Assembly (NCBI GenBank): GCA_025774865.1
Contig: JALGZO010000775.1
Span: forward strand, 1-16,070
Source: a bacterium
GTDB taxonomy: Bacteria; ARS69
Direction of reading: 5' to 3'
Length of the DNA: 16,070 bases
The notes beneath the pieces are model-generated. The model made no database searches, was not told where the DNA came from, and saw only the letters and a list, made by a program, of their open reading frames with translations. Of the stretch, positions 382-13,130 are shown piece by piece. A program made the translations under genes and the position numbers. Within the stretch, counting starts at the first letter, position 1. Every line of letters starts with the position of its first letter.

Positions 382-978
382 CTACCCCTCGCCCTCCGTC
401 CGGAGCCCCGGTTCGACCGAATCGCAGAGGCACTCGTCCCCGCAGACTTCGCACTCGCTCACGCGCTTTCCCTCGCACGGAGCGCGAAACGCGTGGAACG
501 CCTCCCGGAAACGCGCGGCCGTCATGTCATCCGAGACGAGGAGGGAAGTCAGGCGCAGGAGCTGCCCCATCGCCTCGGGACTCACGAGGTGTTCGATCAT
601 GCAGGCATCTTCCTCGGCCGTCCCGTCGGAGACCCCGAGGATGTCTCGGAAGAAGATCGAGAGCACCTGCCGGTTGGACTCCGTGCGCTCGGCGAGCTCC
701 TTACCGGATGGCGTGAGCTCGACGCAGCCGTAGCGCTCGTGGTCGACCAGACCCCGCCCTTGCAGCGAGCGCAGCATCGAGGTCACTCCGCTCTTCGAGA
801 CGCCCAGGCGCTCCGCCATATCCCCCACCCGCGCGTAGCCCTTCTCCCTCTTGAGGCCGGCCACCGCTTGCAGATAGTGGGCCATCGAGTGGGAGACTTC
901 CTTTTCGTGGTATTTCTTCCAGACTTCCATGGGACCGGCCTCGACACAGGGACTTGAGGGGTGCTCAAGAGTGTTCAT
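382..978 (-). CDS. DtxR/MntR-family metal-dependent transcriptional regulator with Cys-rich tail
   Basis: This is a likely iron- or manganese-responsive DNA-binding regulator, and probably controls the feoAB genes that follow directly. It has 198 residues: a winged-helix domain at about 30-92 (helix-turn-helix around VGDMAERLGVSKSGVTSML, wing ending ELTPSGKELAER) and a dimer/metal domain at about 93-150 with DACMIEHLVS. Aligned by eye to DtxR, the primary metal site has His34 where DtxR has Met10, and keeps Cys126, Glu129 and His130. The ancillary-site His79 is replaced by Asn102 or its neighbour, and His98 by an acidic residue. There is no SH3 domain. Instead a tail holds five cysteines (168, 176, 179, 183, 185). 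The ATG at 978 lacks a clear ribosome site; Met17 (930-928) is preceded by GAGG at good spacing and is a serious alternative. The stop abuts the feoA GTG. Confidence 0.88.
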   Translation of the reverse strand: MNTLEHPSSPCVEAGPMEVWKKYHEKEVSHSMAHYLQAVAGLKREKGYARVGDMAERLGVSKSGVTSMLRSLQGRGLVDHERYGCVELTPSGKELAERTESNRQVLSIFFRDILGVSDGTAEEDACMIEHLVSPEAMGQLLRLTSLLVSDDMTAARFREAFHAFRAPCEGKRVSECEVCGDECLCDSVEPGLRTEGEG

Positions 979-1008: not shown

Positions 1009-1944
1009 AGAGGAGACTGTGAGATCCACCCCCGAGAGCGACGGCGGCCGCCACAGCACCGTATCCTGGGGATCGCAGGCCGCCAGCCGCCGGAGAGCAG
1101 TCTCCCGGCTCGAGACGGCGTAGCAGTAGGCGCACCCGAACGCGCAGGTGTCGTACGCCCCCACGTCGACGGACCGCACGCAGCCGCAGTCCGCCCGCGT
1201 GGGGCGAGGTGGCAGCTTCGGCAGCGCGGCGCCGCGAACCTCCTCGACGGCGGCGGGATCCACGCAGCGCGATCTCTCGACGGTATCGCCGAGGAGGGAA
1301 TCGTCGCAGCAGGAGCGGAGGCTCATCCCGTGCGCACCGGCGATCGCCGCGAGCTCGCGGGCCCGGTCGATCTTCTCCGTGCGCGTCGGACGGTCGAACG
1401 GCCGGCCGGTCTGGGCCTCTATCCTCCCGAGGTTCCGCTTCGTCTTGCCGTAGAAGTCGACGAACGAGAACGTGCAGCGTCGGGTGATCCCCTCCAGACG
1501 CGACGCCAGTCGCTCGAAGCGTCGGACGTGCACGCACCAGGGCATTCCCGGCGACAGCACGATCGGGTCGTAGCGCCAGAGCACGGCGCCCGGTCCGAGG
1601 CGGCGCGAGACCTGCTCGGCCGCGGCGATCGCCGTCTCCACGGGAGGACTGTGCGACTCCACCGGGGGGCCGTAGCCCGTGATCGTGAGCTGGAAGAGCA
1701 TCGCGTAGCCGTCCTCCCGCAGCGCGCCGAGCTCCGGCAACAGAGGCCGCGGGTTTCTCGTCCAGAACACGATCCCGAGCACGTCGTCGGGTCGAAGCGA
1801 GACTCGACGCACGTTCGCGGTGAACGGGTGGATCCAGTGACAGTAGCCGGCGCGGACCCGATTCAAGAACCACTTCGAGTGGAACGCCGGGACGTCGGTC
1901 CGGCGGCTCGCGGAGATGATCTCGGCCGTGGTGCCTTCCGTCAC
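1006..1944 (-). CDS. DUF1848 family protein with C-terminal radical-SAM-like Cys cluster
   Basis: This is a DUF1848 (PF08902) protein of 312 residues, the usual size. Visible are the N-terminal IISASRRTDVPAFHSKWF, then FWTRNPRPLLPEL, LFQLTITGYG, LWRYDPIVL and FSFVDFYGKTKRNL. Near the end is the cysteine cluster C267-x3-C271-x2-C274 in DTCAFGCAYCYA, with further cysteines around CGC shortly before. The spacing matches the cluster ligands of radical SAM enzymes, but sits at the C-terminus instead of the N-terminus; this is known for the family, whose function is unknown. The open frame extends upstream to 2493, but that part is out-of-frame sequence of the neighbouring gene. I chose GTG at 1944-1942 because it overlaps the upstream TGA as GTGA and has GGGAG five bases before it. 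A ferredoxin gene in the same run could supply electrons, which is inference. Confidence 0.85.
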   Translation of the reverse strand: MTEGTTAEIISASRRTDVPAFHSKWFLNRVRAGYCHWIHPFTANVRRVSLRPDDVLGIVFWTRNPRPLLPELGALREDGYAMLFQLTITGYGPPVESHSPPVETAIAAAEQVSRRLGPGAVLWRYDPIVLSPGMPWCVHVRRFERLASRLEGITRRCTFSFVDFYGKTKRNLGRIEAQTGRPFDRPTRTEKIDRARELAAIAGAHGMSLRSCCDDSLLGDTVERSRCVDPAAVEEVRGAALPKLPPRPTRADCGCVRSVDVGAYDTCAFGCAYCYAVSSRETALRRLAACDPQDTVLWRPPSLSGVDLTVSS

Positions 1945-3326
1945 GAGGTCTCCCTCGCCGGCGCGAGAGCCCACCGCGAGCCCTCCGACCGGACGCGACC
2001 CGCCTCCGCCAGTTGACCGAGGTGCGACATCGCCTGTCGGGCCGCGAGCGCCGGGTTCGCCTCGGGTGTGTCCGCGTACGCGGCCTCGACGATTTCGTCG
2101 ATGTGCTTCGGGCCGTCGGCGAGCGCGGCGAGGATCCTGCCCTCGCGCTCCACCCGGTGGTCGATCAGGCGCTGCACGTCCGAAGCCGGATCGATCATCG
2201 GAGGCCCGTGCGCCGGAAACAGGGTCGTCGCGCCGATGTCGCGGATGCGTTCGAGCGACCGGAGGTACCGGTCGAGGCTTCCTGGGCCGGAGTCGACGAG
2301 AATCGTCGACACGCCGCTCACGAGGTCTCCCGCGAACAGGCTGCCCCTCGTTTCCTCGAGGAACGCGAGGTGCCCCTCCGCGTGCCCCGGTGTATAGAGC
2401 GCCCGAACCCGTTCCCCGCCCGACAGCGCGATCACTTCGTCGTCGGCGAGGTCGGTTCGCTCCACGTCCCGGCACTCCGGCCACGATGGCCACGTGTCCG
2501 GGTGCGCCAGTACGGGAACGCCGAGCTCGCCGGCGAGGAACGCGGCCGCGCCCGTGTGATCCCCGTGATGGTGCGTGAGCAGGATGCCCCTCGGTTCGCT
2601 ACCGTCACCCATTCGTGTTCGGACGTGACGCAAGATCCGCGACTGCTCACTTTCGTCGGCGCTCCCCGGGTCCACGATCACGAACTCCCGCGACCCGACG
2701 AAGTAGCAGTTCGTATGCGTCGCCGGCGGAAGCGTCGCGGTCGCGAGCGGGATCATCAGGACGTCGGGAACGAACTCGATGCGGGGGCCGTCTTTTTCCA
2801 GCCGTGCGTTCAGCCGGTCGAGGCGCCCCCCCAGCCCCTCGACCGATTCGTCGGCCGCCGCTGCCAGCTCTGCGAGAATCGGAATCAGAGGCGGCGCAAT
2901 CCGGATGTCCAAATTCCGCCACCGACGATAGAGCTCTTTCGGCTCCGCCCAGTGGAGATCCAGGAGCTCGTCGGCGTCACCGGAGGCGACCGGGACCGGC
3001 TCCGCCAAAGACGCGACGTACATCAAAGTGTCGAAGCGGCGCGGCGCGAACGGCGGCGTCACGCGCCGGCCGGCGCTCAGGAAGGCGTGGGGTGGGACGT
3101 CCACGCCGGTTTCCTCCCGCAGCTCCCTCGATGCGGTTCGGCGCAGACAAGCATCCTCGCCGTCTCCGGCGAGATCGCCGTCCTCCGCCTCGTGGACGCC
3201 GCCGGGGAACGCGAAGTATCCGCCGAGAAACCGCGACTTCGGATTCCGACGCCCGACGAGCGCCAAGAGCCCGCCCGCACCGCGGCTGACGACGATCGCG
3301 ACGGCGCCCTTCTGGACCCGGCTCAA
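1941..3326 (-). CDS. Nudix hydrolase fused to metallo-beta-lactamase-fold hydrolase
   Basis: This two-domain enzyme has about 461 residues. Residues 1-180 form a Nudix domain, which normally hydrolyses nucleoside diphosphates linked to another group: FPGGV (40-44), an insertion of about 18 residues, then RELREETGV (67-75). The interrupted Nudix box resembles the NUDT7/NUDT19 branch. Residues 205-400 are a metallo-beta-lactamase fold with the zinc motif H252-x-H254-x-D256-H257, then GHAEGHL, AGD and FPAHGPP. The last 70 residues (HRVEREGRILAAL to the end) look like the winged-helix tail of the LACTB2 group. Upstream codons in the frame belong to the adenosine deaminase in another frame. The best start is TTG at 3326-3324, overlapping the deaminase TGA as TTGA. 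No clear ribosome site is seen, so coupling is likely. The substrate is unknown; LACTB2 is a nuclease, but a small-molecule thioester or phosphate substrate is equally possible. Confidence 0.88.
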   Translation of the reverse strand: MSRVQKGAVAIVVSRGAGGLLALVGRRNPKSRFLGGYFAFPGGVHEAEDGDLAGDGEDACLRRTASRELREETGVDVPPHAFLSAGRRVTPPFAPRRFDTLMYVASLAEPVPVASGDADELLDLHWAEPKELYRRWRNLDIRIAPPLIPILAELAAAADESVEGLGGRLDRLNARLEKDGPRIEFVPDVLMIPLATATLPPATHTNCYFVGSREFVIVDPGSADESEQSRILRHVRTRMGDGSEPRGILLTHHHGDHTGAAAFLAGELGVPVLAHPDTWPSWPECRDVERTDLADDEVIALSGGERVRALYTPGHAEGHLAFLEETRGSLFAGDLVSGVSTILVDSGPGSLDRYLRSLERIRDIGATTLFPAHGPPMIDPASDVQRLIDHRVEREGRILAALADGPKHIDEIVEAAYADTPEANPALAARQAMSHLGQLAEAGRVRSEGSRWALAPARETS

Positions 3327-5848: not shown

Positions 5849-5877
5849 GGTATACCTAGGAGGCGACTACCTGTAAA
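5849..5877 (-). promoter_or_regulatory. Predicted sigma70-type promoter of the fdxA operon
   Basis: On the minus strand TTTACA (5877-5872, five of six consensus bases) and TATACC (5854-5849, four of six) are separated by exactly 17 bases. The -35 lies inside the last codons of the upstream exported-protein gene, the -10 in the intergenic gap. Transcription would start near 5842, giving a leader of about 73 bases. The -10 region also contains the 8-base palindrome GGTATACC. No other intergenic gap in the window has a match this good. Confidence 0.5.
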
Positions 5878-6550
5878 GGGCCTTGATGTTCGACCACGTC
5901 TCGTCGTTGACGTGCACGGACCGGCTCGGGGACACCTCGAGATTCCACCGAGAGCCGTAACCCTCGGGGATTTCGCCCCCCTTCATCGACAGGGCCGCGT
6001 TGACCGCCCAGTGCCCGGAGCTCATGTCGGGCAGCCCCGACCCGGCCTCGAACCTCACTTGGCCCGACGCGGTCACGATTCCGAAGATCTCGCGGATGGT
6101 CAGTTCGGTCACGGAGCCGAGCAACACGACCTCGCCGTCGTGGAAGGTCGACGGGACGAGCGCATTCGGCGGATTCGGCCGGAAGATCGAGTTGAAGGAC
6201 GCGTCGGACCGAACTTCGAGGACTCCGAACGTGAGGTCGAGGTAGCGAATCCCCGAGGAGGGCTCCCGGATCTCGTGCACGACCGATCCGTACAGGGTCC
6301 ACGTGTACTCGCGCGTACCGGGCGTGACGTCGAACGGGGGATCGCTCGACTCCATGTCGAACTGGCCGACGACCTCCAGCGCCTGCCCCATCGCGGGCAG
6401 AACGTCCGGAAACGCGTAGCCGCTACCCCGGAGCGTCTCGCCAGGGGCGGGCGCCGCTCCGAAGAGCCCCACGACCCCCGCCGCAACGAGCCCCCGGACC
6501 ACGGCGCGGTCGGTCCGGGAAACGAGGCGCGAGGGATAGCCGTGAGCCAT
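5867..6550 (-). CDS. Hypothetical exported protein
   Basis: I do not recognise this 227-residue protein. Its N-terminus looks like a signal peptide: arginines within the first 19 residues, a hydrophobic stretch GLVAAGVVGLFGAA at about 20-33, then a small-residue region near APAPGETL. The mature part is rich in Ser, Gly, Val and Phe with alternating hydrophobic residues (YTWTLYGSVVHEI, IRYLDLTFGVLEV, GEVVLLGSVTELTI), which suggests a beta-sheet protein, perhaps periplasmic, surface or secreted. No cysteine motif, lipobox, anchor or catalytic motif is seen. The ATG at 6550 has no strong ribosome site. It follows the exonuclease gene by 89 bases on the same strand, with a stem-loop between them, and its last codons overlap the -35 of the fdxA promoter. 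Confidence 0.7.
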   Translation of the reverse strand: MAHGYPSRLVSRTDRAVVRGLVAAGVVGLFGAAPAPGETLRGSGYAFPDVLPAMGQALEVVGQFDMESSDPPFDVTPGTREYTWTLYGSVVHEIREPSSGIRYLDLTFGVLEVRSDASFNSIFRPNPPNALVPSTFHDGEVVLLGSVTELTIREIFGIVTASGQVRFEAGSGLPDMSSGHWAVNAALSMKGGEIPEGYGSRWNLEVSPSRSVHVNDETWSNIKALYR

Positions 6551-6639: not shown

Positions 6640-7524
6640 TCAGGCGATTCCCGCTTCCCCGATCGCGACGACTCGGTCGAGGCGAAACACTTTCGTCTCC
6701 CCCCTTTCGACGTCGTAGGCGACGAGTCTCGGAACTCCGCGGGACCGGTCGATCACGTACGGCACGACGCGCCGCGCCCGTTCGATCCCGCGCTCCGACC
6801 GGACTCGGATCTCGAGCTGGTCGCCCCGGTGGAGGGCGGCCTCGAGCCGCATTTGCTGTTCCGGCGAGATCACGACCGCGGGCGGTTCGCGCCCGGGCCG
6901 GGCCTCTTCGGGCGACTCCGACTCGAGCAGCTCCGCGGTCGAGTGGACCCCGGCGTCGCGGGCGCACTCGAGAGCCAGACGAAAGACCTCGACGGTGGCC
7001 AGTGCGTCGTCGAGGGCGCGATGCGCGCGGGCTCGGCGGATGCGGTGGAACCAGCACAGCGTGGCCAGATCGTGCGCTGGGGCGTCGGGGAAGAACCGTC
7101 GGGAGAGGCGGACCGTGTCCACGAAAGGGTTCGGCTGGGGCGGACGGCCCGCCCGCCGGAGCGCGGCTCGGAGCACCGCGCGGTCGAAGGGCGCGTTGTG
7201 CGCGACGAGCACGGCGTCCCCGATGAAGGCCATCAGCTCCGGCAGCACGTGGACGAAGTGCGGCTCGGCGGCGACCATTTCGTTCGTGATGCCGTGAAGG
7301 CTTACGCCCGCGTCCGGGATCGGGAAGAGCGGACGGCACATTCTGTCGAATGTCCCGCCTGCGCGCCACGGCCGCCAGCGAACCGCGCCCACCTCGACCA
7401 CGTCACCGGCCGTCCCGGACGTCTCGAAGTCCAGGACGACGAAGGATTGTCGGAGCCAACGGTCAGACACCGGGGCACCTCGCACAGGGACTTCCGGGAG
7501 CATCGGGAGGTCAACCCGGGGCAT
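6640..7524 (-). CDS. DnaQ-type 3'-5' exonuclease fused to a WYL-like domain
   Basis: This 294-residue protein has two parts. Residues 26-195 are a DEDDh exonuclease of the DNA polymerase III epsilon family: Exo I VLDFETSG (D32, E34), LHGITNEMV, Exo II AHNAPFDRAVLRAAL, and Exo III ARAHRALDDALATVEVF with the catalytic His and Asp. After a linker rich in Glu and Pro, the last 75 residues resemble a WYL domain: EAALHRGDQLEIRVRS, RVVPYVID, PRLVAYD and VFRLDRVVAI match the usual pattern, though the Trp-Tyr of the name is Pro-Arg here. WYL domains normally sense nucleic acid or ligands in regulators and some helicases. I chose ATG 7524 because GGAG lies six bases upstream. GTG 7470 also has a GAGG site, and a frame from 7590 exists but its extra residues look non-conserved. 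Role in repair or nucleic-acid-triggered degradation is inference. Confidence 0.85.
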   Translation of the reverse strand: MPRVDLPMLPEVPVRGAPVSDRWLRQSFVVLDFETSGTAGDVVEVGAVRWRPWRAGGTFDRMCRPLFPIPDAGVSLHGITNEMVAAEPHFVHVLPELMAFIGDAVLVAHNAPFDRAVLRAALRRAGRPPQPNPFVDTVRLSRRFFPDAPAHDLATLCWFHRIRRARAHRALDDALATVEVFRLALECARDAGVHSTAELLESESPEEARPGREPPAVVISPEQQMRLEAALHRGDQLEIRVRSERGIERARRVVPYVIDRSRGVPRLVAYDVERGETKVFRLDRVVAIGEAGIA

Positions 7525-7729
7525 TCGTCGCTCCGCAGCTGCGCTCCTCGCCGAACATTCTAGGCCTCCATGGTGGCTGCGGTGCGCCATGCGGCTCGAC
7601 GAATGCCCCGGGCCGACCCCCTCCCGCTTTCCCGGCCTCCCCAGCGCGCTCGACCACCAGAGTACCGGCCGCCGGGGACTTGAGCTATCGTCCCGCGAAA
7701 CGCAAGCCCGACATCGGCCCGGAGACTCG
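7525..7729. promoter_or_regulatory. Divergent intergenic region between exonuclease and symporter genes
   Basis: This 205-base gap must hold the start signals for both neighbours. On the minus strand TAGAAT (7562-7557) is a good -10 element, about 26 bases before the ATG at 7524 once the transcript starts near 7550, but no matching -35 is seen. For the plus strand I found no convincing promoter. It is the longest non-coding stretch in the window, and no RNA gene is apparent in it. Confidence 0.3.
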
Positions 7730-9160: not shown

Positions 9161-10262
9161 GGGTGAATCCGGCGACCAGCACTCCGATCCCGAGCCAGAA
9201 CGGCGCGGCGAGCGACGCCGTGAGCGTCGCGAGAACCCCGCCCGCCAGCGGCAGCGACGAGCTGCCTCCGCCGAGGATCGTCTCGTGCAATCCGGCCGCC
9301 CGCCCGCGGCCGGTGGCCCGGTCGAGGCTCGCGTGGATCGACGCTTGATACGCCAGACCCAGCGCGATCCCGAGCGGAAGCGCCGCGACCCATTGCAGGA
9401 CCAGATTCGGCGCCAGGAGAAAGAGCGTGAGAGCGACCGCGCCGAGCGCGTACGCGGAATAGAGCGTACCGCGCCCCGGTCGGTGGGAGTGAAGCAGCGC
9501 GAACGTGGCGGTTTGCGCGAAGAAGACGCTACCGATGACGACGCCGAACGCGGATGGACCCGCCGACTGCGCCAACAGGAACTTCGGCGCGTGGACGTTC
9601 ATCGTGCTGCCGAGGCCGAACGCGATCGCATTCGTGACCCAGGCCAGACGGAGGAACGTGACGCCGGGGTTCGACTCCGGTCGGTCCGCGCCCTCACCGG
9701 CGCGGACGGTGCCCACCATCTCGCCAGACCCCGGACGATTCCTCGGCAGGACGGCGAGCGCGATCAGAACCGGGACCCCCGCGAAGAGCAACGCCGGCTG
9801 CGGCTGCAGGGCCTCCGTCAGGAGCCCCCCGACGAGGAGCCCACTCCCCTTGCCGAGGCTCCACGAGACGTTAAACGCACTCACCGCTCGGGAGAGGTTC
9901 CCTGCCGCCCGGTCCGAGAGCGCCGCCTGCAGGGGCGACCAGAAGAACCCGAGTGCCACCCCCAGAACCGGCAACGCCGCAAACAGAACCGTCAGCCCCG
10001 GAGCCGCCGCGATTCCCAGGCACCCCAGAATGAAGACGACACTGCCCCCGCGGGCGAGCGTCAGCCGCGGCACGCGGTCCGAGAGACGCCCTCCCCAGGA
10101 CGCGCTCGCCATGTAGGCGGCCGCGTACAGAGTCGGTAGGATGCCGAGACGAGCCGGGCCGGCGCCGAGCTCGATCGCGCGAAACGGAAGCGCCGCGAAC
10201 GCGAGATAGAGAGCGGCGTCCGTGAGAAACGCGGCGATGAACAGACGGAGACAGCCTCTCAT
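9090..10262 (-). CDS. MFS transporter
   Basis: This major facilitator superfamily protein has 390 residues and about 12 predicted membrane helices. The conserved loop between helices 2 and 3 is present as SWGGRLSDRVPRLTLARGG (about residues 54-72), and the second half begins near NPGVTFLRLAWVTNAIAFG after a charged central loop. The family moves drugs, sugars or metabolites by proton exchange; nothing points to a substrate. The ATG at 10262-10260 has AGGA about seven bases upstream. This start codon and that of the aspartyl protease-like gene share the four bases CATG on opposite strands. The 3' end overlaps the symporter end by 71 bases, so the gene is overlapped on both sides. Promoter elements must lie inside the neighbouring reading frame. 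Confidence 0.9.
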   Translation of the reverse strand: MRGCLRLFIAAFLTDAALYLAFAALPFRAIELGAGPARLGILPTLYAAAYMASASWGGRLSDRVPRLTLARGGSVVFILGCLGIAAAPGLTVLFAALPVLGVALGFFWSPLQAALSDRAAGNLSRAVSAFNVSWSLGKGSGLLVGGLLTEALQPQPALLFAGVPVLIALAVLPRNRPGSGEMVGTVRAGEGADRPESNPGVTFLRLAWVTNAIAFGLGSTMNVHAPKFLLAQSAGPSAFGVVIGSVFFAQTATFALLHSHRPGRGTLYSAYALGAVALTLFLLAPNLVLQWVAALPLGIALGLAYQASIHASLDRATGRGRAAGLHETILGGGSSSLPLAGGVLATLTASLAAPFWLGIGVLVAGFTLTAGLLARRRGDPPGAEQSGGFR

Positions 10263-11865
10263 GGCGAGATCCTATCGACGCTCCCGGGAAGCGGCAATCG
10301 GCGTGTTCCTGGCCGGGCTCGTCGCCGCGATCCCGGTCGCCGCCTCCTCCGCGCCCGATCTCGAGCTTCTGCTCGACGAAATGGCCCGCTCCCTGTCCGC
10401 GACCCGCGACGTGCGCGAGGTCCGCGCGCTGCGCGTCGAGGCGACGGTCGAGGTGGGCGGGCAATCCGTCGGTCGCGTGGTGACGATCGCCCGGCGGGAC
10501 CCGAGAGCCCTGAGCGAGGTCCTGGACATGGCGGGCATCCGTCAGTCGCTGACGCTCCTCGGTGACGAGGTTTGGATCCGGGACGCGAACGGCACGACTC
10601 GCCGCGCCTCCGGAGACGAGGTGATCACGGCCCGGCTCGCGCACACGCTGCTGTTCCACACGTATCTCGACGGCGATTCGGACGAGCTCGAGCTGCGGCC
10701 GGCCGGCGACGGGCTCGAGTTCCGGTCGCCACCCGGCGATTCGACCCGGCCGCGCGGCCTGCGCGTCGAGCGCGTCGAGACCGACGGCCTGTCTCTCCTC
10801 CTGCCGCGAGAGTGGAGCCAGCGCCAGCACGGCATCGACGTCGTCACCACGTTCGAGGACTGGCGCCCGGTGGACGGAATCCGTTTTCCCCTGATCTCGA
10901 AGCAGTCGACCGGCGATCCGCGCTTCGACATGACGCTGCGCACGGACGTTTGCGAGGTGCTCGACGAGCTACCCGAAGACATCGCGATTCCGGTGTCGAG
11001 CGAGCCCGATTTCGAGATGACCGACGCCGATTCGGCCGCGGACATCCCCCTCGAGCTCGTGATGAACCTCGCTCTTCTGCCGGTCCGAGTGAACGGTAGG
11101 ACCGGGTCTTTCCTCCTCGATACGGGGGCGGGCGCCACCGTCATCGACGCATCCTTCGCCGAGTCGCTCGATCTCTCCGTGCGCGGCGTGCTCGAAGCGC
11201 GCGGCGCGGGCGGCAGCGAGCCGGGATCCTTCGTGAACGTCGAGAGTCTTCGACTGCCCGGCGTCGTCCTTCGAGGTCAGACGCTCGTCGCACTGTCGCT
11301 CGACGCCATTTCGAAGGCGCTCGGACGATCGATCTCCGGGATCCTCGGCTACGACTTCCTGAGTCGGTTCGCGGTCGAAATCGACTACGGGCAGGCTCGC
11401 CTCGCGCTCGCTCCCTCGGGCGGTTACGAGCCTCCGGACGAAGCGGTGCGGGTTCCGCTTCGCATCGAGTCGAACGTGCCGCGCGTGGAAGGGCGGCTGG
11501 AAGGGAAGCATCAGGGCAGCTTCCTGATCGACACCGGCAACAGCCGCAGTCTCCTGATTCACTCTCCGTTCGCCCGCGCCCACGGCTTCGACGATCGTCC
11601 TTCCCGGGGCGACGCGGACGTTTCGGGTATCGGCGGACGGGAGTCGATGCGCGAGATCTCGGTGCGCTCTCTCACGCTCGGCGACACCGTGTTCCACGAC
11701 GTGCGGGCGTTCGTCTCCGATTCGGCCGAGGGAATCGTCGCGATCGACGAAGCGATTGGAAACGTCGGCGGCGCGCTGTTCGCCGGAGGTGTGCTGGCGT
11801 TCGACTACAGAGCGGAGTCGCTCTGGATCCAGTCGCCGAGCTCCGCCTCGGCCTCCGACCGATAG
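10261..11865 (+). CDS. Exported aspartyl protease-like protein with two DTG motifs
   Basis: This protein has 534 residues. A signal peptide is visible: basic MARSYRRSR, hydrophobic AAIGVFLAGLVAAIPVAA, likely cut near ASSA-P. Residues 40-255 resemble an outer-membrane-lipoprotein-sorting type domain (VWIRDANGTTRRASGDE, FEDWRPVDGIRFPL). Two retropepsin-like units follow: the first with FLLDTGAGATVID (D287) and a matching GILGYDFLSRFAVEIDYG, the second with FLIDTGNSRSLLI (D424) and a degenerate counterpart GGVLAFDYRAE. The A1-type fold needs two DTG sequences, while retropepsins dimerise; here the two could pair within one chain. It is probably periplasmic or at the outer membrane; proteolytic activity is unproven. 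GTG 10222 and ATG 10237 are in-frame alternatives but put extra charges before the signal peptide. The end overlaps the rhomboid gene by 61 bases. Confidence 0.85.
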   Translation: MARSYRRSREAAIGVFLAGLVAAIPVAASSAPDLELLLDEMARSLSATRDVREVRALRVEATVEVGGQSVGRVVTIARRDPRALSEVLDMAGIRQSLTLLGDEVWIRDANGTTRRASGDEVITARLAHTLLFHTYLDGDSDELELRPAGDGLEFRSPPGDSTRPRGLRVERVETDGLSLLLPREWSQRQHGIDVVTTFEDWRPVDGIRFPLISKQSTGDPRFDMTLRTDVCEVLDELPEDIAIPVSSEPDFEMTDADSAADIPLELVMNLALLPVRVNGRTGSFLLDTGAGATVIDASFAESLDLSVRGVLEARGAGGSEPGSFVNVESLRLPGVVLRGQTLVALSLDAISKALGRSISGILGYDFLSRFAVEIDYGQARLALAPSGGYEPPDEAVRVPLRIESNVPRVEGRLEGKHQGSFLIDTGNSRSLLIHSPFARAHGFDDRPSRGDADVSGIGGRESMREISVRSLTLGDTVFHDVRAFVSDSAEGIVAIDEAIGNVGGALFAGGVLAFDYRAESLWIQSPSSASASDR

Positions 11866-13130
11866 CGGCTGGACGGATCCTGCCGAACCGCCTGTTCCAG
11901 GGAAGAGACCGCGTCCTGGAAGCGTCCGAGTCTGGCCAGCGCGATCGCGAGCAGGTAGCGATCAGTGGCCTCATCCCGCCCGGTTCGCTTCTGGGCGAGC
12001 GCCTCCGCGAGATAGCGGGCGGCCTCGGGGGCGTCGCCGTCGCGCAGGCGTGCCGTACCGTAGGTGCCGAGCACGTAGGGGTCCGTGGGCTCGAGCTCGA
12101 CCGCGCGACTCGCGAGGCGGGTCGCCTCCCTTCGATTGCGCAGCTCTTGCGGAGCCTCTTCCAGCAGCAGCCAGGCGAGGTTGTTCATCACCATCGCGTC
12201 GTCGGGCGTGATCGCGAGAACCGCTTGGTAGTCCTGGATCGACTCGAGCCAGTCCCCGGACAACATGTGGAGCTGCGCGCGCAAGCCCAGTAGCTCCGTA
12301 TCCGTGGGATTCCGCTCGAGGGCGTCGGTGACCGCTCGAATCCGTTCGTCCTGGAGGATCCACGCAATGCGGGCATCGTCGAGGCCCCGCGTCCGGAAGA
12401 TGTTCTGCGCCGAGCCGGCGAACGACACGAAGAGCAGCGGAAGGCAGATCGCGGCGAAGATGCGTGACGTCTCGCGCGACCGCCGACCTTCGGATTCGGC
12501 CAGCGCTTCCGGGCGGATGAAGAGCGCCAGGACCGCACCCACCAGCAGGCCGCCGAGGTGCGCTTTCGAGTCGATGAACGGAAACGTCAGGCCGAGCACG
12601 ATGTTCGCGCCGACCAACGGCAGCAGGAACGTTCCCATGATCTTCGTGACGCGCGGGGGCAGCGCCCCTCGAAATCGGAACGCGAAGACGATCGAGACGC
12701 CCGCGAGCCCGAAGACGGCGCCGGAGGCACCGACGGAAATCGCGTTCGAGAGCGTGGCGCTCGCGATCGATCCGCCCAGACCGGACACCAAGAAGACGAA
12801 GAGGAACGCCCAGGGTCCATAGAAGGCCTCGACGTTGCGACCGAGGAAGAAGAGTGACAGGAGGTTCAGCCCGAGATGGAGAACGCCGCTGTGGAGAAAC
12901 ATGCTGGCGATCAGTCTCCAGATCTCGCCGTCGGCGACGAGCCGACCGGAGTTCGCTCCGAAGTTGACGAGCACGGAGAGATCGCTGCCGAGGAGGGCCG
13001 CGATGGGATCGGTCGGCCGGCCGGCGATCCAGACCATCGCGAAGTACACGAGATTGCCGACGATGATCGCCTGCGTCGCGCGGGCGGGGCGAAGGAAGAT
13101 CACGCCGCGAGGTGGCAATGCCGCTTCCAT
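11805..13130 (-). CDS. Rhomboid-family intramembrane serine protease with C-terminal TPR domain
   Basis: This protein has 441 residues. Residues 18-205 form six or seven membrane helices of a rhomboid protease: WRLIASMFLHSGVLHLGLNL (71-90), the active-site GASGAVFGL with Ser136, and AHLGG with His191, so the Ser-His dyad is intact. After a further hydrophobic stretch near 225-240, residues 270-435 contain tetratricopeptide-like helix pairs (LHMLSGDWLESIQDYQAVL, MNNLAWLLLEEAPQELRNR, ALARLGRFQDAVSSLEQAV), probably for protein binding. Rhomboids cut membrane proteins within or near their helices; the target here is unknown. The ATG at 13130-13128 has only a weak ribosome site. It is 20 bases downstream of the 176-residue protein gene, so the two are likely co-transcribed. 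The last 61 bases overlap the opposing aspartyl protease-like gene. Confidence 0.9.
   Translation of the reverse strand: MEAALPPRGVIFLRPARATQAIIVGNLVYFAMVWIAGRPTDPIAALLGSDLSVLVNFGANSGRLVADGEIWRLIASMFLHSGVLHLGLNLLSLFFLGRNVEAFYGPWAFLFVFLVSGLGGSIASATLSNAISVGASGAVFGLAGVSIVFAFRFRGALPPRVTKIMGTFLLPLVGANIVLGLTFPFIDSKAHLGGLLVGAVLALFIRPEALAESEGRRSRETSRIFAAICLPLLFVSFAGSAQNIFRTRGLDDARIAWILQDERIRAVTDALERNPTDTELLGLRAQLHMLSGDWLESIQDYQAVLAITPDDAMVMNNLAWLLLEEAPQELRNRREATRLASRAVELEPTDPYVLGTYGTARLRDGDAPEAARYLAEALAQKRTGRDEATDRYLLAIALARLGRFQDAVSSLEQAVRQDPSSRYRSEAEAELGDWIQSDSAL

Follow-up and report, generated by a model that had tools for sequence, protein, structure and literature searches.

A DEDDh exonuclease-like protein with a C-terminal WYL domain: a widespread bacterial family with a conserved basic groove

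Background

More than 90% of WYL proteins possess an HTH domain and are taken as regulators (PMC6789036). In Makarova et al. 2014 (PMC4012209), the ligand groove of the domain is described as four basic residues, often with a cysteine, and the name-giving W-Y-L letters as weakly conserved across WYL domains, a point restated in PMC11804915. The single-stranded DNA (ssDNA) binding of PafB is abolished by R181A alone, by R181A/R204A/R208A and by R211A/R214A, and also requires Y196, the Tyr of the WYL motif (PMC11804915). A C-terminal WYL domain serves Pif1 helicases as an accessory ssDNA-binding module and is required for their activity (Andis et al. 2018, as reviewed in PMC9964779). A barrel following a DEDDh nuclease is known from E. 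coli exonuclease I, where the barrel is SH3-like (PMC4319927).

The pairing of a WYL domain with an exonuclease was named in 2014, when a 3'->5' exoRNase was given among the enzymes with which WYL domains combine (Makarova et al. 2014, PMC4012209). A 2019 survey of WYL proteins displays only architectures with at least 100 sequences, and DEDDh-WYL is unmentioned in its text (PMC6789036). No experimental study of a DEDDh-WYL enzyme was found in the open-access literature. The combination is widespread in bacteria, already mentioned in 2014 and uncharacterised. Here, one member is described from a window of 16,070 nucleotides, the whole stretch of DNA that was analysed (contig JALGZO010000775.1, assembly GCA_025774865.1).

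The gene and its nuclease domain

The DEDDh-WYL gene occupies 6640..7524 on the minus strand, as do all of its features given below, and encodes 294 amino acids plus a stop; the plus-strand reading of 6640-7524 does not give this protein. The ATG at 7524..7522 is a plausible start because GGAG stands 7 bases ahead of it, and starting instead from an in-frame ATG at 7590 would lengthen the protein to 316 amino acids. Full-length homologs exist, 44 proteins of the family were aligned, and the gene is chromosomal. A plasmid search returned four records covering at least 80% of the protein, one of which, at 11.9 Mb, is chromosome-like.

Residues 29-181 (6982..7440) match RNase_T (PF00929, E 6.9e-27) with 95.4 bits against a curated cut-off of 24, and the same domain is found in 44/44 aligned homologs. 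The DEDDh motifs are all present: D32 (7431..7429) and E34 (7425..7423) in VLDFETSG, D114 (7185..7183) in VAHNAPFD, and H168 (7023..7021) and D173 (7008..7006) in HRALDD. These five residues (D-x-E, D, H-x4-D) are invariant in every aligned protein. By structure and sequence comparison the nuclease part resembles S. aureus DinG, PolC, DnaQ, E. coli epsilon and ExoX, and the matches to DnaQ/epsilon, the PolC exonuclease, DinG and ExoX lie at Z 18-24 and 25-32% identity. The protein is, as judged from its sequence, a predicted DEDDh 3'-5' exonuclease of the DnaQ type, in agreement with the original prediction, which had seen every motif of such an enzyme in the N-terminal part.

Identity and fold of the tail

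The tail is a genuine WYL domain. Residues 226-287 (6664..6849) match PF13280 at E 2.3e-8 and 34.3 bits (cut-off 21.8). Searched by itself, the tail reaches E 1.6e-9 against Pfam WYL, and 43 of the 44 aligned homologs carry the domain at E <0.01. The scores of both domain matches are far past chance level. For the tail, a likeness to WYL by chance is ruled out by the Pfam match, the fold and the conservation together.

A full-length AlphaFold2 model built on the 44 homologs (mean pLDDT 86.7) contains two confident domains joined by a flexible linker, residues 207-214 (6883..6906), with pLDDT <50. In the model the WYL tail consists of a helix (221-233) and five strands (237-290). Modelled by itself, it has a pLDDT of 91.6 and the same one helix and five strands, forming the Sm-like SH3 barrel of WYL domains; a different fold had been named beforehand as the finding that would count against the assignment. 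Foldseek comparison of the tail with the PDB placed WYL proteins in all of rows 1-25, namely PafBC, BrxR, CapW and DriD, and several of the matched structures, including those of DriD and CapW, have ssDNA bound. VIA-align gave Z 11.4 for CapW (rmsd 2.1 over 79 residues) and Z 11.0 for PafBC, followed by Hfq and other Sm proteins at Z about 9 (Hfq-type about 8.8). The proposal that the last 75 or so residues are WYL-like is thus borne out by the Pfam match, the barrel fold and the top PDB matches. The protein ends seven residues past the WYL match without a WCX domain, and no HTH match was found in it with Pfam, residues 29-181 being nuclease.

The basic groove

In a phmmer alignment to mycobacterial PafB, R251 (6772..6774) pairs with R181, and the basic loop and strand R274-x3-K278-x2-R281-x2-R284 (6673..6705) pairs with R204, R208, R211 and R214. 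All five positions are basic in the window protein, and R251 is Arg in 41/44 proteins. Across the 44 proteins the five groove columns are 84% Arg/Lys, compared with 12% in the other tail columns. No other columns of the tail are as basic, and in 100,000 random draws of five columns none equalled them. At most two of the five basic residues are retained in 3/44 homologs.

The original prediction called this WYL domain degenerate, which holds for the name-giving letters, since the window protein reads P-R-L where W-Y-L is expected, but not for the groove, whose five PafB-equivalent positions are all Arg or Lys and are the most basic columns of the tail. A degenerate or decaying tail was considered and is ruled out, as the groove positions are its most conserved basic columns. 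The W of the motif is absent across the family as a whole (44 proteins), the Y is found in 29/44 members and is Arg in the window protein, and the groove cysteine is found in 37/44 and is Asp in the window protein.

Distribution and history of the fusion

A profile search, using a profile built from nine fused proteins, identified full-length DEDDh-WYL proteins in 35/389 surveyed genomes from 25 families, and two further families carry the combination. The original prediction had regarded the design as unusual. It is not rare, given this spread and the statement of the combination in Makarova et al. 2014, and homologs keeping the same domain order, which the prediction had asked for, are those of the 25 families. 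Their full-length proteins also rule out a one-off fusion or an assembly artefact. In one phylum, 22 of 151 sampled genomes encode a full-length member, each in a single copy; the phylum is apparently Chloroflexota, because the members group with a Herpetosiphonaceae record. Named hosts among the matches listed, where PolC and GIY-YIG-fused relatives dominate, are Herpetosiphonaceae and Ca. Geohydrothermomicrobium. Two genomes of one family, G102 and G339, encode three diverged DEDDh-WYL paralogs each (L152-L155, L181, L182), which suggests sub-functions within the family.

The fused nuclease domains cluster in a tree (5 label changes against 31 when shuffled), the proteins of this first set having been collected with a profile that includes WYL and being biased accordingly. 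When 20 more unfused relatives were added, 13 label changes were needed (35.7 shuffled), of which well-supported branches force only 3. These trees are compatible with a single fusion event but do not establish one.

Loss of the WYL domain from fused proteins does occur. In genome G003, of the same family as the window genome, the homolog L003 (G003:C10:45133-45759) keeps the nuclease and stops before the WYL domain, and no WYL remnant was found near it. In another genome (G035), an ACT-domain gene directly follows the nuclease.

Among the unfused DEDDh relatives, eight (L004, L021, L029, L194, L201, L202, L205 and L206) bear an N-terminal extension of ~60-140 residues. The extensions are alike in several of them, e.g. 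...EEILRDFFKIKNLTGRAEELLDGIL... and ...TATEAARIVFNSTSIPASLAESLLEAL...DGQW, and resemble a winged-helix domain; this is the second architecture in which the nuclease recurs.

Genomic context

The window genome (G000) is 92.65% complete and 8.3% contaminated, and a profile search detected the window protein as its only RNase_T and only WYL match, an absence of others that is limited by the incomplete assembly. The relatives G002 and G003 hold one RNase_T protein each, and none was found in two less complete relatives, within the limits of incomplete assemblies and profile reach. The single DnaE of the window genome, aligned to M. tuberculosis DnaE1, keeps all nine PHP metal ligands. The PHP exonuclease of DnaE1 does the proofreading in M. 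tuberculosis (PMC5636811); with an intact PHP site the cell can proofread without epsilon, and the window protein need not be the replicative proofreader.

The genes adjoining the 44 DEDDh-WYL loci vary by family and are mostly metabolic or mixed housekeeping. No recurrent neighbour or defence system was found among 74 immediate neighbours, a comparison that a stand-alone defence gene would escape. PADLOC signals at these loci are isolated, e.g. a kinase, the PD-T4-6 match being to a general kinase model, and the family's PADLOC hits to DEDDh and PDC-S48 are of a kind that the nuclease domain gives in general. Among phage records, none reaches 80% coverage of the window protein. A defence context was considered, and none was found at the 44 loci or in phage records.

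The G002 homolog (51% identity) is adjoined by the same divergent SSF transporter that lies upstream of the gene in the window (74% identity between the transporters), which indicates that the locus is stable within the family. Downstream and on the same strand, 5867-6550 (-) encodes a 227-amino-acid protein for which Pfam returned nothing up to E 1. Elsewhere in the window, 382-978 (-) encodes a DtxR/IdeR-type iron-dependent repressor (PF01325, PF02742). By eye, the product of 1941-3323 (-) is Nudix-like in its N-terminal part (GGYFAFPGGVHEAED...REELREETG), resembles a metallo-beta-lactamase further on (THHHGDHTGAAAF) and possibly ends in a winged helix. The gene at 10222-11865 (+) encodes a protein in which two stretches resemble retropepsin-type aspartyl proteases (PF13650, E 9.9e-31). 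At its 3' end this gene overlaps with 11805-13130 (-), a convergent gene whose product is rhomboid-like in its N-terminal part and has TPR repeats.

Proposed mechanism and alternatives

On balance, and narrowly, the protein is probably a housekeeping, single-strand-preferring DEDDh 3'-5' exonuclease whose WYL barrel holds the same strand. It would act on single strands of nucleic acid, most likely on the ssDNA ends and flaps that arise in repair or recombination. Two divalent metal ions would be held by D32, E34, D114 and D173, with H168 as the general base, and nucleotides would be removed singly from the 3' end. The WYL barrel, on its flexible linker, may hold the strand being degraded by its sugar-phosphate backbone, in a groove lined with arginines, a grip that would raise the affinity or processivity of the nuclease. 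The nearest precedent tested by experiment is the accessory WYL module of the Pif1 helicases; exonuclease I serves as an analogy only.

This grip is supported by the PafB arginines, because those whose mutation abolishes ssDNA binding correspond to the most basic columns of the family, and by the top PDB matches of the tail, because these are ssDNA-sensing WYL proteins (PafBC, CapW-ssDNA, DriD-ssDNA). The nuclease itself is supported by the invariance of its catalytic residues in all 44 proteins. The neighbours, which differ between families and are mostly metabolic genes, fit a stand-alone repair enzyme. The case for ssDNA is weakened by the replacement of the Tyr needed in PafB with Arg, by the Asp in place of the common groove cysteine, and by the three homologs with few basic groove residues. 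In G003 the WYL domain appears dispensable, because the relative there lost it and keeps the nuclease. Moreover, since a basic groove is common to WYL domains generally, it predicts an anionic ligand and not ssDNA in particular.

An RNA substrate is the foremost alternative, in which the protein would be a 3'-5' exoribonuclease with a barrel that holds RNA in the manner of Hfq. This is unlikely, but carries some weight: the WYL-fused enzyme was called a 3'->5' exoRNase in Makarova et al. 2014, the Hfq-type Sm proteins come next after WYL proteins in the structure ranking, and Pfam gives the protein a weak match to the exoribonuclease family Rv2179c (21.4 bits, cut-off 27), which 20/44 homologs match at E <0.01. 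DNA is favoured since the exonuclease families closest to the protein in sequence and structure (PolC, DinG, DnaQ, ExoX) act on it, and since WYL domains of known ligand mostly bind ssDNA.

It is doubtful that, in line with the original idea, the WYL domain is instead an allosteric sensor, by which an ssDNA fragment or small nucleotide signal of damage or phage would switch the nuclease on or off. The WYL domains of PafBC and DriD are ssDNA-triggered switches, and ligand control of WYL-fused enzymes was proposed in Makarova et al. 2014. However, neither the 44 loci nor the phage records lend it support, the flexible linker shows no fixed interface to carry a switch, and the WCX domain that contributes to the ssDNA tunnel of PafBC is absent. 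Strand binding as an accessory function is no less likely than control by a damage or phage sensor. A nuclease family gated directly by its WYL domain, with groove-bound ssDNA or a nucleotide ligand changing its activity, is regarded as quite improbable; if true, the family would respond to DNA ends independently of RecA and transcription and would be the first demonstrated case of an enzyme switched by WYL. That this lineage uses the protein as its replicative proofreading subunit (epsilon) is very improbable: it is the sole RNase_T protein detected in the genome, scores above the cut-off of TIGR00573, the broad dnaq model of NCBIfam (79.2 vs 71.5 bits), and epsilon binding is compatible with an intact PHP site (PMC3919608), but it misses the true epsilon equivalog TIGR01406 (77.8 vs 222.7 bits), the single DnaE keeps its nine PHP metal ligands, and G102 and G339 hold three family copies.

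If the preferred reading of a strand-gripping exonuclease holds, a widespread family with the same groove would show that WYL is fundamentally a module for binding single strands, which enzymes have re-used. The window protein offers a small two-domain protein in which the role of WYL could be tested directly, and is an unstudied candidate repair exonuclease in lineages seemingly without another DEDDh enzyme.

Comparison with known systems

DnaQ/epsilon, the PolC exonuclease, DinG and ExoX have the nuclease domain in common with the window protein, but all lack a WYL domain. Conversely, PafBC, DriD, CapW and BrxR have the WYL fold and basic groove in common with it, but possess an N-terminal wHTH and mostly WCX, neither of which it has. 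In the Pif1-WYL helicases of T. elfii and D. desulfuricans (PMC9964779), too, an enzyme acting on nucleic acid carries WYL at its C-terminus, with neither WCX nor HTH, and the basic groove residues are the same. They are helicases whose ssDNA binding was demonstrated by experiment, whereas the window protein is an exonuclease for which such binding is predicted.

In E. coli exonuclease I (SbcB), an SH3-like barrel follows the DEDDh domain as well. That barrel belongs to another family and is larger, and the window protein is without the helical third domain, ends after its barrel and has no match to the Pfam ExoI domains at E up to 1. Exonuclease I ranks 12 in Foldseek, where only the nuclease part overlays well (rmsd about 13 Å over the whole span), and is a plausible working analogue of the window protein. 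The WYL/3'-5' exonuclease fusions of Makarova et al. 2014 (PMC4012209) combine the same two domain types and appear there, in the accessible text, in a single clause without sequences, order, distribution or mechanism; here, one such family is delimited, in which both the catalytic and the groove residues are conserved.
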